NCBI GenBank assembly: GCA_947623955.1
Contig: CANQIP010000001.1
Span: forward strand, 1-64,000
Direction of reading: 5' to 3'
Source: an uncultured Clostridia bacterium
GTDB taxonomy: Bacteria > Bacillota > Clostridia > UBA1381
DNA length: 64,000 bases
A program made the translations under genes and the position numbers. This document shows positions 2,948-61,300 of this stretch, piece after piece; the first letter of the stretch is position 1, and every line of letters starts with the position of its first letter. The notes beneath the pieces are model-generated. The model ran no database searches, was not told the origin of the DNA, and saw nothing but the letters and a program-made list of their open reading frames with translations.

Positions 2948-3137
2948 GGGCGAACTCGGTTCGCCCCTACGGCGGGACGTTTATGGGTTTCGTTTTGCGG
3001 GCGACTGCAAGGGTCGCCCCTACGTGAGGCTCCCCTTGAGGGGAGCTGTCACCGTAGGCGACTGAGAGGTGGTTTTAAAATTTGTTGCCACCTCTCCGTC
3101 ATCGCTTCGCGATGCCACCTCTCCTCAAGGAGAGGCT
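2948..3137. repeat. Palindromic repeat cluster PE1
   Basis: Non-coding DNA between mutS and the YlbF-family gene. It holds two short palindromes ending in CGCCCCTACG (2948-2971 and 2999-3024), then a 111-bp element (3027-3137). The element has two inverted arms, and each arm carries two hairpins: CTCCCCTTGAGGGGAG and GTCACCGTAGGCGAC in the left arm, CATCGCTTCGCGATG and CTCTCCTCAAGGAGAG in the right arm. The arms meet at AGAGGTGG/CCACCTCT. Further copies lie near 5.5, 9.7, 32.9, 34.8 and 52.7 kb. No coding potential is visible. Confidence 0.9.
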
Positions 3138-3151
3138 AACGGCATACTATT

Positions 3152-5334: not shown

Positions 5335-5380
5335 GTGTTTGTAAAGAAATGTTGGGGAAATTGATGCGAAAGGAGTATAC

Positions 5381-5667
5381 GGGACGTCGAGGGCGCCGTC
5401 CCCTACGTCCGTGATTTTAAAACCGTGCGCCGTAGGGGCTGGCGCCCCCGACAGCCCGTTTTTGTTTTACATTCAATGCGGCAGGTGTAGGGGCGACCAT
5501 TGGTCGCCCGCGGGCGGCGGATCGCCGCCCCTACGTGAGGCTCCCCTCGAGGGGAGCTGTCGCCAAAGGCGACTGAGAGGTGGCTTTTTAATGCGCGTTA
5601 CCACCTCTCCGTCATTGCTGCGCAATGCCACCTCCCCTCAAGGGGAGGCTCACGATGTGCGCCGCAG
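5381..5667. repeat. Palindromic repeat cluster PE2 with an 80-bp extra module
   Basis: This fills most of the 409-bp gene-free stretch between the Dabb gene and the XRE regulator. Parts: an 80-bp module (5381-5460) that recurs nearly identically at 34710-34788; a double palindrome (5487-5535); the two-arm hairpin element (5538-5651); and a 3' flank TCACGATGTGCGCCGCA (5651-5667) also found after PE3 and PE4. In the right arm the hairpins read CATTGCTGCGCAATG and CTCCCCTCAAGGGGAG. Both differ from PE1 by paired, stem-preserving changes. Confidence 0.9.
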
Positions 5668-6904: not shown

Positions 6905-6910
6905 ATGAAC

Positions 6911-6934
6911 GGGCGAACACGGTTCGCCCCTACG
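6911..6934. repeat. Short CGCCCCTACG palindrome
   Basis: The palindrome GGGCGAACACGG...CGCCCCTACG recurs almost identically at 2948-2971 and 32782-32805. It ends four bases before the stop codon of the CCA-adding enzyme gene. Confidence 0.85.
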
Positions 6935-9540: not shown

Positions 9541-9573
9541 GGTTTTGGTTCCTTTCTGTTAGAATTTTGGTGG

Positions 9574-9855
9574 TAAATTGTGATTTAACTGTGAAAAACC
9601 CCTCCGACGCCTACGGCGCCACCTCCCCTAGTAGGGGAGGCATACAGTGAGGCTCCCCTTGAGGGGAGCTGTCGCCGTAGGCGACTGAGAGGTGGTTTCT
9701 TAAAATACGTATTGCCACCTCTCCGTCATCGCTTCGCGCTGCCACCTCTCCTCAAGGAGAGGCTCACGATATGCGCCGCACATCGTATGGCTCCCCTACT
9801 AGGGGAGCTGTCAGCGTAGCTGACTGAGGGGTTTAATGCGCTAAATCACAATTTA
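9574..9855. repeat. Palindromic repeat PE3, nested, with 14-bp inverted ends
   Basis: This occupies nearly all of the 324-bp gap between ackA and pta. TAAATTGTGATTTA (9574-9587) and its exact reverse complement (9842-9855) bound the element. Inside are two outer arms (about 9598-9643 and 9787-9833, each with CTCCCCTAGTAGGGGAG-type and B-type hairpins). A complete inner two-arm element of the PE1 type (9650-9764) lies between them, followed by TCACGATATGCGCCGCA (9764-9780). The right outer arm reads GTCAGCGTAGCTGAC. The arrangement looks like one element inserted into another. Confidence 0.9.
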
Positions 9856-11006: not shown

Positions 11007-11444
11007 TTATTCGTTTTCTATCGCGTGGATTTTATCTATTCGGTTTTGGTGTCTGCCGCCGAGAAATTCCGCGTCAAGGAACGTGTCCACAATCATAAAC
11101 GCGAGCTCTCTGCCCGTTACGCGTCCGCCGAGACAGACTATATGCGCGTTGTTATGCTCCTTTGCCATTTTCGCGCTGAACACGTCGCCGCACAGCGCGG
11201 CGCGTATGCCCTTGTACTTATTCGCAGCCATGGATATGCCTATGCCCGTGCCGCAGATGAGTATTCCTCTCTCGCATTCGCCTTTAAGAATTGCCTCGCA
11301 CACCGGCTTTGCGCAGTCGGGATAATCGACGCTGTCCTCGGTGTACGTTCCGAAATCCTTTACCTCTATACCGCGCTCGGCGAGGTGCTTTATTATGTGT
11401 CCTTTAAGCTCGTAGCCGCCGTGGTCGCTGCCAATAGCTATCAT
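11007..11444 (-). CDS. rpiB: Ribose 5-phosphate isomerase B
   Basis: A 145-residue RpiB/LacAB-family isomerase interconverting ribose 5-phosphate and ribulose 5-phosphate. GSDHGGYELK (residues 5-14) and the catalytic-cysteine loop CGTGIGISMAANK (C64) are both intact, followed by GIRAALCGD and NAHIVCLGGRVTG. The ATG at 11444 overlaps a TTTTAGTGTCCCC repeat, whose reverse complement places GGGGGA in the ribosome-binding position. It appears to close the fhs-tsaE-tsaB-rpiB group and is followed by a terminator. Confidence 0.95.
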   Translation of the reverse strand: MIAIGSDHGGYELKGHIIKHLAERGIEVKDFGTYTEDSVDYPDCAKPVCEAILKGECERGILICGTGIGISMAANKYKGIRAALCGDVFSAKMAKEHNNAHIVCLGGRVTGRELAFMIVDTFLDAEFLGGRHQNRIDKIHAIENE

Positions 11445-11492
11445 TTTAGTGTCCCCCTTATTTTAGTGTCCCTGTACAGTTTTAGTGTCCCC
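11444..11492. repeat. TTTTAGTGTCCCC motif array, site 2
   Basis: Three direct copies start at 11444, 11461 and 11480 (17 and 19 bp apart) and fill the space between rpiB and tsaB. The last copy runs into tsaB, where it encodes the final residues and stop (GGA CAC TAA on the minus strand). The first overlaps the A of the rpiB start codon. Confidence 0.88.
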
Positions 11493-12611: not shown

Positions 12612-12679
12612 TTTAATGTCCCTTTATATATTTTAGTGTCCCCGTAACTTTAGTGTCCCCACGGGGTTTTAGTGTCCCC
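12611..12679. repeat. TTTTAGTGTCCCC motif array, site 3
   Basis: Four direct copies start at 12611 (variant TTTTAATGTCCC), 12631, 12648 and 12667, spaced 20, 17 and 19 bp. They fill the entire 68-bp space between the tsaE start and the fhs stop. Read on the minus strand each copy is a GGGGACACTAAAA block. Confidence 0.88.
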
Positions 12680-32757: not shown

Positions 32758-32781
32758 TATGAAACATCTCCTTTTTTTGGC

Positions 32782-32981
32782 GGGCGAACACGGTTCGCCC
32801 CTACGGTGATTATATATTGTCCGTTTAACGGGCGGATAATATCCGCCCCTACAGCGAGGCTCCCCTTGAGGGGAGCTGTCGCCGTAGGCGACTGAGAGGT
32901 GGTTTTTACTCGTTGCCACCTCTCCGTCATCGCTCCGCGATGCCACCTCTCCTCAAGGAGAGGCTCACAAGATGCGCCGCA
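32782..32981. repeat. Palindromic repeat cluster PE4
   Basis: Lies between the UPF0210 gene and the V-ATPase operon. It contains the CGCCCCTACG palindrome (32782-32805), a second palindrome GGGCGGATAATATCCGCCCC (32830-32849), the two-arm hairpin element (32857-32965) and the TCACAAGATGCGCCGCA flank (32965-32981). Its right-arm hairpin reads CATCGCTCCGCGATG. It has the same orientation as PE1 and PE2 and is inverted relative to PE5. Confidence 0.9.
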
Positions 32982-33002
32982 CGCCGCGAGGTGAACGACG
33001 CC

Positions 33003-34656: not shown

Positions 34657-34682
34657 CGTTTTTGTTCTCCTTCTTTTATCGG

Positions 34683-34954
34683 TAAATTGTGATTTGACGG
34701 TGTAAATGCGGGACGTCGGGGCGCCGTCCCCTACACCCGTAATTATAAAAATGTGCGCCGTAGGGGCTGGCGCCCTCGACAGCCCGTTAGCCTCTCCTTG
34801 AGGAGAGGTGGCATCGCGAAGCGATGACGGAGAGGTGGCAACAAATTTTAGAACCACCTCTCAGTCGCCTTCGGCGACAGCTCCCCTCAAGGGGAGCCTC
34901 ACGTAGGGGCGATCCTTGCGGTCGCCCGCATTTACGCACATAAATCACAATTTA
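34683..34954. repeat. Palindromic repeat PE5 with inverted ends
   Basis: TAAATTGTGATTTG (34683-34696) and TAAATCACAATTTA (34941-34954) match as inverted ends in 13 of 14 positions, the same ends as PE3. Inside, a second inverted pair GTAAATGCGGG/CCCGCATTTAC encloses three parts: the 80-bp module (34710-34788), an inverted two-arm hairpin element (34789-34899) and a CGTAGGGGCG palindrome (34902-34927). The right end extends 10 bp into rlmB. Confidence 0.9.
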
Positions 34955-35682
34955 CATTTCCTCTGCCTCAATGCCTCGTACATCAGCACGGCGGCGGCGA
35001 CGGACGCGTTCAGCGAATTTATATCGCCCGCCATCGGTATACTCGCGATAAAATCGCATTTCTCCTTCACGAGCCTTGAAATGCCCTCGCCCTCGCTGCC
35101 AATCACGATACCGAGCGCGCCTTTAAGATCCGTTTTATACATTTCCTCTCCGTCCATATCCGCGCCGGTTATCCACAGTCCCGCTTTTTTGAGGTCGTCT
35201 ATTGTCTGCGCGATATTCGTGACCTTCGCCACAGGCGTGTAAACCGCCGCGCCCGCCGACGTTTTTAAGACTGTACTGTTGACCCCTGCGCCGCCGCGTT
35301 TCGGTATTATAACGCCGTGCGCGCCGACGCAGTTCGCGGTACGTATTATCGCGCCGAGGTTGTGCGGGTCGGTTATCTTGTCGCAGATAATCACGAACGG
35401 CGGCTCGCCCTTTTCGGCTGCTCTTTGCAGAATATCCTCGACCGTCGCGTACTCCTGCATGCTCACTATCGCGATAACGCCCTGATGATTGCCGCCCTCG
35501 GCGAGCGCGTCAAGCTTTTCCTTTGCCGTTTCCTGTATGATTATGCCGTTTTCCTTGGCTCGTTTTACTATCGGTATAACGCCGCCCTCGTACCTGCCTT
35601 TTTTAATCAGGATTTTCTCAATCGCTTTTCCCAACTTTATCGCCTCGAGGACGGGGTTTCTGCCTATTATCTTATCGTCCAT
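34945..35682 (-). CDS. rlmB: 23S rRNA (guanosine2251-2'-O)-methyltransferase RlmB-like
   Basis: A 245-residue SPOUT (SpoU) methyltransferase. GRNPVLEAIKLG opens it, with an N-terminal L30e-like RNA-binding domain. Motif 1 is DKITDPHNLGAIIRTANCVG, then the IPKRGG loop; motifs 2/3 are GIVIGSEGEGISRLV and IPMAGDINSLNASVAAAV. It methylates a guanosine ribose in 23S rRNA. Its last codons and stop (CKL-stop) are written by the end of the PE5 repeat, suggesting insertion remodelled the C-terminus. The exact target nucleotide is by homology only. Confidence 0.92.
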   Translation of the reverse strand: MDDKIIGRNPVLEAIKLGKAIEKILIKKGRYEGGVIPIVKRAKENGIIIQETAKEKLDALAEGGNHQGVIAIVSMQEYATVEDILQRAAEKGEPPFVIICDKITDPHNLGAIIRTANCVGAHGVIIPKRGGAGVNSTVLKTSAGAAVYTPVAKVTNIAQTIDDLKKAGLWITGADMDGEEMYKTDLKGALGIVIGSEGEGISRLVKEKCDFIASIPMAGDINSLNASVAAAVLMYEALRQRKCKL

Positions 35683-52560: not shown

Positions 52561-52882
52561 CCCCTTGTCAAAGTGAACAACACGCAGAGCGTGTTGTAGG
52601 CGTGTTGCGTAGCAACAAACGCCGTAGCAAGGGGGCTGTCACGCGCAGCGTGACTGGGGGATTCCTTTCCAATTTACGCATTGAATCCCTCCACCGCCTT
52701 CGGCGGTCCCCCTCCCTTTAACAAGGGAGGCTTTCGTAGGGGCGACCCTCGCGGTCGTCCGTATAAACCCCTCAGTCGCTTTCAGCGACAGCTCCCCTAG
52801 TAGGGGAGCCATACGATATGCGGCGCTCAAAGCAAGGCTCCCCTACTAGGGGAGCTGTCACACGCAGTGTGACTGAGGGGTT
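52561..52882. repeat. Palindromic repeat cluster PE6 (three diverged elements)
   Basis: Fills most of the 432-bp gap between metK and the PAP2-like gene. It contains a long variant element (52561-52735, with GTCACGCGCAGCGTGAC and CACCGCCTTCGGCGGT stems), a CGTAGGGGCGACC palindrome (52735-52760), and two shorter ACCCCTC/GAGGGGT elements. Those two have GTCGCTTTCAGCGAC with CTCCCCTAGTAGGGGAG (52767-52812) and CTCCCCTACTAGGGGAG with GTCACACGCAGTGTGAC (52837-52882). No gene is visible in it. Confidence 0.85.
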
Positions 52883-52891
52883 TTCCCGTAT

Positions 52892-58301: not shown

Positions 58302-61300
58302 TCATTCCCGCGACGTTCGTTCGCATATTGCGGACGGTAAAATCGGCTTGGGGTTGCCGTCAAGACCTCTCCACAGGAACGCTTTAACCTCACATTCCTC
58401 CGCGTTCCGGTTAAATGTCAGCGTCTTTTTTATCACTTCTTCCGACATATCGATCGTCTCGCACCTACATTCGACCAGTCTGCCGTTTTCGTAAATTGCC
58501 GCGATAAGCACCGCGCCGCCGCTTTCGTCCGGACATTTGATTTCCGTATTGACGTCCTTACCCTCAACGGTCACGGCAAAATATTTCTCGGGCCCGGGGC
58601 TTGGTGTAGGGGTCGGTGTAGGAGACGGCGTTGGTGTAGGAGACGGACTCGGACTCGGGCTCGGAGTGGGTGTCGGCGTAGGCGTCGGCGTTGGTGTAGG
58701 AGACGGACTCGGGCTCGGGCTCGGGCTCGGAGTTGGTGTGGGTGTCGGCGTAGGCGTCGGAGTGGGTGTCGGCGTAGGCGTCGGCGTTGGTGTTGGTGTT
58801 GGCGTTGGCGTCGGCGTAGGGGTCGGCGTAGGTGTAGGTGTCGGGGTTGGCGTCGGGGTAGGGCTCGGTGACGGCGTAGGTGATACAGTACGTAATTTCA
58901 GTACCGGAGCTTTAGACGATGCCATGCCGTACAGATTGCCTCCGCCTGCATTTCCCGTGAAAATAAATGTCACTGTCTCGCCTCGGCTGTCCGACAATAA
59001 TTTCGTAACGTCAACACTGTACGTTGCGTCCGCGTTTTTCGGCGCGTTAAACTTATCGGCAGACACGGCTTTTCTCACATCTTTATACAAGTCTGCCGCG
59101 CCGACCGAAAGCTTTGTCAAATCAATATCCGCGTCGGACATATATATCAAAAACGTTCTGTCACTCCTTGTTTCTCCCAAGACCGTGAATGTCAGCTCGG
59201 CGTTTTGGATAGCCTCGTCGGGGAGTTTAAACTGAGCATATGCCGCTCCCGACCAGCCGTTGTCAACATCATCATCCATAAACTCCTGCTCATTATCATA
59301 AGACGTGCCCGGATCGCTCCACTTGCCCCATTTCGATGTCGCGGTGTGAACAAGCTCTGCGTATTGCTCATCTCCCGGTTCGGTAGTCGGAGTTGACGAC
59401 GGTTCCGGAGTAGGTTCGGATATATTGTCCGTGCGTGTTTCTTCCTTGCCGTCATGCACGGTTTTAATATACGCCGCAGTCTCACGCTCGTCGTACTCGT
59501 CCTTCGTGTCGCTTACGTAATAGCTTATGTGCGGCGGCTGGTTGTACGCGCTGTTCTGTCCTACAACCTGCATACGGTAACCGCAGTCGTGCATAAGAGT
59601 GTAAAGGCGGTTGGTTGTCGGAGTTACGGTCGTATAAAGTACCATAGCCGTGCTGTCGGCTGTACGCATCAGAACCTCCTCGCGCCAGTCTCCTAAAATA
59701 TCCGCTTGCAGACAGGGATTTCTTTTTGTGTCGTTGTTGGATATGCCTTGATTTAAATAAGTATCTCTTGTTGACGTTGATCCGTTATGATTAAAAACAA
59801 CAAGCTGTCCGTCCCTGCTTCCCGTGCCGTCCACAAGCTCATCGCTGACATCGCCGTCCCAGAATATGCGAAAGCTTGGGTCGCCTTTATCTGTCAGTCT
59901 TGTTACGTCCTCGTCTATGGTAAACCCCGTATTATCCTTATGAGCTATCTTATTCGCCCACATCTGGTAGTAGCCGTTACCCGTAAAGTTCGCCATAATG
60001 CCGCGTCCGGTATCACCGCCCGCGTCCTCATGGAAAACAATTTCGCCCGTTTCGGGATATACGAGACTCATGCCGTAAGGCGCGTGCTCGTGGACTATAA
60101 AATATTCCATACCGTCATGCGTGGGATCGTAATCGGCAAGGTGGAGCGCGTCGCCGTGACCTGTTCCGAGCGTCCATTTGACCTGTAAATTATCATTTTC
60201 ATATTCAAGGCAAATTCCGCCGCAGAGAACCTCGTCTTTGCCGTCGCCGTCAACGTCACCGACCGTGGTGTTATGGTTTCCCTGTCCGGCTATTTCTTCG
60301 TCCTTGTGCGCGCCGTTGTAACTGTCAGTGTCAAAATCGCCTATTTGTACAAGCTTTTTATCAACTACATTATACGCCGTTGCCGTCATCTTTTCGTAAT
60401 AACCGCGCCAAGCGATTACTGACGGGTGAACACCGTCAAGATATGCCGCAGATGTAAGAAAACGCTCGGAACGGTTGCCCCAGTTATCACCCCACTCGAT
60501 AACCGTACCGCGTGAGTGCGGGTAATACACCGTATCAAGAGCCGCGCCTGTTTCACCGTCGAAAAGCGTGTAGTACTCGGGACCCTGCATAACGCGTCCG
60601 TCGCTTTGACGATAGTCTTTTTCATTGTCCGTGCTGTTCTTTATTTCATCAATGGATGAAACCACCGACACGTAATTGTCTTTGCCATCCTTTGTGCCGG
60701 GGGCTGTTTTGAATGCCAATTCGGCTTTGCCGTCAAGGTCAAAATCGTATACGGCAAACTGCGTAAAATGTGCGCCAGCGGAAATGTTATCGCCTAAATT
60801 TATGCGCCACAGCCGTCTACCGTCTAATTTATACGCGTCAATATAAACGCGTCCCGAAGGCCCTGTATGCGGCTTGCCGCTGTCAAATGATTGCGAAGGA
60901 TCCCACTTTAATATAATCTCGTATTCGCCGTCGCCGTCAAGGTCGGCGCACGACGCGTCATTTGCCGAATATGTAATTGTATTTTCCTGACCGCCGTTAA
61001 TCGAGTCGGTATATGTTTCCGGCGGCGTAAGCGGGATTGTTAAATACTGCTGCGACCAGACATCAACGGGTTTACCCGTTTCAATGCCTTCGCCCGTTTT
61101 TACCACGGTATATTTATCACTGCCCGATGCGTTGTTATCGGTATAGTTTGTGCTGTCCGTTATGTTCGACGCGACCTTTTGAGTCCCGCGGTATACGTCG
61201 AAACCCTGCTCGTAATTCTCCGTTCCCAGCAGTCTCCAGCTTATATACACGCCGCCCGATACCTTCACCGCGACAGTGCCGCGGTCGAGATATTCCATTC

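Follow-up and report, generated by a model that had tools for sequence, protein, structure and literature searches.

Two-hairpin intergenic repeats of a Clostridia genome are probably miniature copies of a mobile element carrying a DUF559 gene

The window analyzed here comprises bases 1-64000 of contig C1 in the 2.13 Mb draft genome (G000) of an uncultured Clostridia bacterium, and six repeat loci all fall between its long minus-strand open reading frames. An earlier note on this DNA had described the six as like copies of one palindromic family, each built from two inverted arms with two hairpins. The family and its two-armed plan were confirmed at 3.0, 5.5, 9.7, 32.9 and 34.8 kb, where five copies of about 117 bp share one composite consisting of an arm a, approximately 10 nt and an inverted arm b, whereas the arrangement at 52.7 kb is related but different, with two c arms placed head to head. 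Each arm is made up of a hairpin hp1, a hairpin hp2 and an unpaired tail, GAGAGGTGG; the arms meet tail to tail in each composite, and the two tails pair mutually. Arm a has GCTCCCC/GGGGAGC with the loop TTGA as hp1 and GTCGCC/GGCGAC with the loop GTA as hp2, while arm b combines the same tail with CCTCTCC/GGAGAGG as hp1 and CATCGC/GCGATG as hp2.

In copy 1 (3024-3140, plus strand), arm a lies on the plus strand and contains hp1 at 3029-3046 (GCTCCCC, TTGA, GGGGAGC; 98.9% of cells paired in 26 copies), hp2 at 3048-3062 (GTCACC, GTA, GGCGAC, with a single broken pair here) and the tail GAGAGGTGG at 3064-3072, which pairs with 3088-3096 as an invariant third helix. The partner is the tail of arm b (CCACCTCTC), which is followed, likewise on the minus strand, by hp2 at 3100-3114 (CATCGC, TTC, GCGATG) and hp1 at 3118-3135 (CCTCTCC, TCAA, GGAGAGG); the arm b tail and hp1 were included in the pairing analysis of 26 copies, and hp2 reads CATTGC/GCAATG elsewhere, with six double changes at one pair. 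Copy 2 is found at 5535-5653, copy 3 at 9647-9767 and copy 4 at 32856-32968, all on the plus strand, and copy 5 at 34786-34902 on the minus strand. Copy 3 is nested within a head-to-head pair formed by a c2 arm on its left (9595-9641, minus strand) and a c arm on its right (9785-9835, plus strand).

At 52.7 kb the two head-to-head c arms (52764-52884; left half 52764-52814 on the minus strand, right half 52832-52884 on the plus strand) stand beside a d/d2 pair. The d arm (52629-52668, plus strand) has its hp1 loop interrupted by another element, termed F, and the d2 arm (52679-52734, minus strand) shares 98% identity across 54 nt with the left arm of L281, a gene-bearing element described below. 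The further subfamilies c, c2, d and d2 follow the identical plan and form other pairs and mixed arrays. Genome-wide, the element gave 53 matches at E<=0.01, of which about 33 span its full length. Arms were counted with degenerate patterns, a MAFFT alignment having misplaced the hp1 loop, and the arm pattern gave 158 exact matches in the genome versus none for the reversed pattern. Near-identical elements also occur in three other sequences from uncultured Clostridia bacteria (L157, L194, L200).

Several other repeats were observed in the window. The F element, about 57 nt with two hairpins (TGAACAACACGC...GTAGYAAA), lies at 52574-52630 and is also present in L014, L015, L018 and L028; it is inserted exactly into the hp1 loops of other arms and also into the loop of a GTAG-tagged REP, a pattern of loop-targeted insertion. 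GTAG REPs with several hairpin sequences are abundant (2947-2971, 5379-5460, 6910-6934, 32780-32805, 34760-34788, 34903-34930). An inverted repeat, AAATTGTGATTTA, borders whole repeat clusters (9565-9851, 34674-34957) like an outer enclosing element. Furthermore, a tandem repeat array with 12/18-nt spacing lies within a long reading frame at 58591-58910, and TTTTAGTGTCCCC motifs are repeated in two clusters 1.2 kb apart (11443-11492 and 12630-12679).

The claim of paired changes in the stems of different copies was borne out. Among 26 copies of this genome, 5 pairs and 12 cells were changed on both sides, compared with shuffle means of 1.2 pairs and 1.8 cells, and 0 of 500 shuffles matched the observed values. 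Altogether 99.3% of cells were paired in these copies, a value that dropped to 41-65% when the partners were slid by 1-3 columns; broken pairs were seen in some copies, namely in hp2 at 3048-3062 and in arm b hp2 of the 9.7-kb copy. The same holds across phyla, where 81 distinct hp2 segments, drawn with a pattern that places no constraint on the inner stem, had 89.5% of their inner pairs in Watson-Crick form, versus a mean of 54% and a maximum of 63% with shuffled 3' halves (1000 trials). Free variation of the loops, which had also been proposed, was not found in hp2: 43 of 57 odd-length cross-phylum loops are GAA, GCA, GGA or GTA, and the closing pair is C-G in 49 of 50 segments of inner length 7, 9 or 11. 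A GNA loop closed by C-G belongs to a class of unusually stable DNA mini-hairpins. Hence, the hp2 loops point to folding as DNA. The single strand folds as DNA with a z of -6.9.

The earlier note had left the choice between a non-autonomous element and a structured RNA family. A family of structured RNAs, or of terminators or attenuators, selected via the transcript would account for the strong fold, the compensatory changes and the position between co-directional genes. However, a scan against Rfam gave no match at the gathering score, the repeats behave as moving DNA that is present or absent at given sites, nested and found in both orientations, the C(GNA)G loops suit single-stranded DNA, and the arms are common to a gene-bearing unit; a family of this kind is therefore extremely improbable, while secondary effects of the repeats on transcripts are possible.

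The comparison of occupied and empty sites in sister genomes that the earlier note had suggested yielded sites of both kinds. The clusters 9560-9851 and 34663-34957, the latter with the whole repeat cluster 34674-34957 around copy 5, are missing from the relative G015, in which the neighbouring gene is 97% identical. In the relative G012 the cluster 32777-32998 is missing, and no copy exists at the junction matching that of copy 4. Moreover, copies 5 and 3 fill sites that are empty elsewhere, in the first case the spacer of a GTAG REP pair and in the second a c2/c pair (9595-9835). Judged from these occupied and empty sites and from nested insertion, the elements are mobile. Several of the presence/absence differences span multi-element clusters, and some may represent block replacements; a clear target-site duplication was found neither in the occupied/empty pairs nor in the nested sites compared. 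The repeats have the features of miniature inverted-repeat elements (MITEs): they are short and gene-less, possess inverted-repeat ends, occur in many copies, show insertion polymorphism, often of whole clusters, and share their ends with the gene-bearing element L281.

This element carries a DUF559 gene. A tie of DUF559 to such repeats, suggested by other genomes, was tested here, and PF04480 (DUF559) was searched across genomes of the genus. In G012 (L281) and G010 (L282), the order is d2 arm, start codon, DUF559 gene, stop codon and inverted arm, with the junctions ...GGTGGAGGGATTCATT-ATG...TGA-ATCCCTCCGTC... and the tails of the inverted arms directed toward the gene. The left arm of L281 matches gene-less arms in G000 (d2 arms), G010 and G012 with 100% identity over 51-57 nt. 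The orthologous junction of G000 contains GTAG REPs and other hairpins and no DUF559 element. G000 has a single DUF559 gene (C56:8576-8890), immediately preceded by a b arm, a subfamily present in the window elements themselves; its downstream side is without an arm, such that arms are found on one flank only. Hence, the statement that no open reading frame or transposase is present applies to the window copies; this genome and related ones, however, also contain gene-bearing relatives that encode a DUF559 nuclease, as predicted from fold and sequence.

The gene-bearing unit is usually about 450-540 bp long with a DUF559 gene of about 115-150 aa. Clostridial units at different places have about 455-510 nt in common at 84-88% identity, and Caulobacter units about 530 nt at 74-82%, with unrelated flanks in both cases. 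As would suit an insertion, the DUF559 gene interrupts gene clusters in annotated replicons, where it separates sufB from sufC and paaD from paaZ.

The flanks of DUF559 genes were scored by the best local match between the 300 bases upstream and the reverse complement of the 300 bases downstream. Inverted flanks scoring at least 18 were present at 45 of 70 cross-phylum DUF559 loci and in none of 112 windows shifted by 750 bases at the same loci (p 7.5e-20). The maximum was 12.5 in these shifted windows, 14 in 388 random windows from arm-rich genomes and 13.5 at 12 Y1_Tnp loci. In an order-level sample drawn regardless of arms, 18 of 19 DUF559 loci reached 14.5, and a detector that ignores sequence and demands only hp1 plus hp2 found a two-hairpin arm on both sides at 14 of 17 such loci versus 0 of 32 shifted windows. 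Among named replicons, inverted repeats flank DUF559 in Deinococcus and Sphingomonas, and flanking arms are absent around DUF559 in E. coli, Neisseria, Synechocystis and Sinorhizobium, hence not every DUF559 gene is of the arm-flanked kind.

The degenerate pattern detected at least 119 stretches with an arm across the whole collection, in which an estimated number of about 4 chance matches is expected for 20 fixed bases. Hosts among the matches listed are Clostridia, Caulobacterales, other Alphaproteobacteria, Bifidobacterium, Daejeonella, Longimonas, Dehalococcoidia and Riflebacteria, and 30 of the genomes among these matches contain 2 to 400 arms each and no reversed pattern. DUF559 was detected in 25 of these 30 arm-bearing genomes from several phyla, strongly in 24; among the matches listed, about a fifth of the arm-bearing genomes outside the genus are without detectable DUF559, absence calls being soft because genes can be missing from draft genomes. 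An even sample of 149 genomes from the phylum of the window included three with a strong stand-alone DUF559 and two with multi-copy arms, and both of the latter belong to the former (p 2.7e-4). At order level, DUF559 was associated with the arm pattern at p 0.018, where many DUF559 genes carry arms of other sequence that the pattern misses. Among 16 genomes of the same genus, DUF559 was found in 9 of 12 with the element and 0 of 4 without (p 0.019); with a stricter arm pattern the association was weaker (8 of 11 versus 1 of 5, p 0.077). DUF559 was undetected in three repeat carriers of the genus, G001 (99% complete), G011 and G014.

It might be argued that DUF559 is only a passenger, i.e., a homing-type parasite that invades the tail-to-tail spacer of palindromic elements moved by something else. 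Its fold is that of homing endonucleases, the repeats far exceed the DUF559 genes in number, and G001, G011 and G014 are rich in repeats with DUF559 undetected. However, a scan of four contigs of the genome (738 kb) detected no further gene enclosed by inward-facing arms, and nearly all tail-to-tail pairs were at most about 20 nt apart; moreover, in distant bacteria the arms and the gene keep together as one unit with constant ends, and the occurrence of DUF559 follows that of the repeats. We therefore regard a passenger role as rather unlikely. A derivation as MITEs of an ordinary DDE insertion sequence would fit the inverted-repeat structure, the copy number and the size, but it is highly improbable, since no target-site duplication is visible in the occupied/empty pairs, the ends differ among subfamilies while the two-hairpin plan persists, and the inward-facing arms in the scanned contigs enclose no other gene.

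Paired inverted intergenic palindromes also resemble REPINs (BIMEs), i.e., REP sequences moved by RAYT, an HUH transposase of the IS200/IS605 group, and the genome possesses one Y1_Tnp gene as well as true GTAG-tagged REPs. However, the arms a-d lack the GTAG tag at the hairpin foot that the neighbouring B/E repeats have, and an a-d arm was found at 0 of 23 Y1_Tnp loci. Furthermore, Y1_Tnp occurs in the repeat-free genomes G003, G006 and G007 and was undetected in the repeat-bearing G004, G005, G010, G011 and G014, while GTAG REPs lie inside the RAYT gene here and flank a RAYT of Chloroflexota (L374). RAYT as mover of the arms is thus very unlikely and was rejected on flanks and on co-occurrence in the 16 genomes of the genus; by sequence association, GTAG REPs appear to go with RAYT and two-hairpin arms with DUF559. 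The sole Y1_Tnp/RAYT gene of G000 has two GTAG REPs in frame within its open frame (GTAGGGGCGAAC..GTTCGCCCG; L031:1636-1660 and 1837-1861, at about 84.7 and 84.9 kb of contig C2) and no a-d arm, and its orthologue in G013 (L043) has apparently different in-frame inserts.

For the DUF559 protein, an AlphaFold2 model with a mean pLDDT of 89.5 was obtained. Its best structural matches are 3hrl, an endonuclease-like protein of Neisseria, and 3r3p, the homing endonuclease I-Bth0305I (TM 0.83 on target), followed by weaker matches to AbaSI and Vsr. A profile search with the sequence retrieved 3hrl, 3r3p and PvuRts1I, and the invariant residues include E24, D51, E62, D64 and H68. By predicted fold and by sequence, DUF559 (PF04480) is a Vsr-like PD-(D/E)XK / EDxHD endonuclease. 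The Caulobacter DUF559 protein VsrA leads to a DNA-damage response in cells without a cytosine methyltransferase (PMC12907096), which by analogy makes nuclease activity in vivo plausible; DUF559 proteins may also serve mismatch repair (PMC12907096).

Given the common arms, the fixed unit with unrelated flanks, the insertion polymorphism and the co-occurrence, together with the predicted nuclease fold, the repeats in the window are probably non-autonomous miniatures derived from a small mobile element with a lone DUF559 gene. The first alternative of the earlier note, a non-autonomous element, is supported by presence and absence in sister genomes, nesting and arms common to the gene-bearing element. 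In the gene-bearing unit, inverted two-hairpin arms with tails at the start and stop codons enclose the DUF559 gene, and gene loss with joining of the tails about 10 nt apart would have produced the window's a-b, d-d2 and c-c2 elements. The arms may extrude as DNA hairpins, which the nuclease could recognise directly or at their feet, nicking or cutting the element ends and intergenic target sites, often beside or inside other palindromes; the element would then be copied or inserted by host repair, and gene-less copies would be mobilised in trans. Changes on both sides of a stem would arise if only the fold needs keeping and hairpin template switching re-copies one side from the other. In this working model, the arms probably serve for recognition and as element ends, DUF559 does the cutting and host repair the joining, where cutting by DUF559, the position of the cut, the mode of copying and movement in trans are what we infer. 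A lone nuclease differs from a classical transposase, and DUF559 proteins may have a role in mismatch repair, both of which count against DUF559 as the mover. The wider proposition, a bacteria-wide mobile class moved by a single Vsr-like DUF559 nuclease acting on two-hairpin DNA arms, is put forward tentatively, as somewhat less than an even chance.

If true, this would add to the mobility enzymes a class, of nuclease type, distinct from the known transposases, recombinases and HUH enzymes; its gene-less copies would form swarms in Clostridia, Caulobacterales, Bifidobacterium and other groups, with arm numbers reaching the hundreds in single genomes. Many bacterial genomes hold palindromic intergenic repeats without a known mover, and tying a large cross-phylum class of them to DUF559 provides a testable enzyme. 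Mobility would also be a likely reason for the scattered, patchy occurrence of DUF559 genes, would point to DUF559 as a mobile-element enzyme not recognised as such before and would cast VsrA-type proteins, currently assigned to mismatch repair (PMC12907096), in a new light. In the openly licensed PMC texts searched on MITEs, REP/RAYT, Caulobacter repeats, COG2852 and EDxHD, no link of DUF559 to palindromic repeats was found.

Among known systems, REPINs/BIMEs share with the arms the organization as short, inverted, intergenic palindrome pairs in high copy number, and REPtrons resemble the DUF559 unit in that a dedicated nuclease gene lies between copies of these palindromes (PMC3733652, PMC2817692, PMC3116915); TIRtrons with double palindromic TIRs have also been described (PMC3733652). 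In contrast to REPINs and REPtrons, the arms lack GTAG, contain two hairpins each and go with a predicted Vsr-like PD-(D/E)XK nuclease instead of an HUH tyrosine transposase. The text on GTAG REP hosts in PMC3733652 names neither Firmicutes nor Clostridia. The b arm, CGTC-AT...AT-G-CCA, is similar by description to the CGTC-tagged REPs with their CGTC tag, AT-start stem and CCA tail, a class stated to be without a dedicated transposase; however, its published families have a single short hairpin instead of two per arm (PMC3733652). Arms and DUF559 are abundant in the genus Caulobacter. The CIRs of this genus, long inverted-repeat intergenic elements (Chen and Shapiro 2003, as summarised in PMC10969869), are comparable by description, but are defined in that summary by CcrM (GANTC) sites, with the site in one repeat.

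EDxHD/Vsr-like homing endonucleases such as I-Bth0305I (PDB 3r3p) have the same fold and detectable sequence similarity and are examples of an endonuclease as mobility enzyme; unlike the DUF559 units, the I-Bth0305I type is intron-borne and site-specific and has no two-hairpin inverted arms. To our knowledge, miniature derivatives of such endonucleases have not been described. Finally, prokaryotic MITEs are, like these repeats, short, gene-less, inverted-repeat elements with ends common to a gene-bearing element, but their described parents are insertion sequences with transposases (PMC10969869), and no target-site duplication was seen here. Collectively, the repeats themselves are of a known, MITE- or REP-like kind, while their tie to an element with a Vsr-like nuclease appears to be new.
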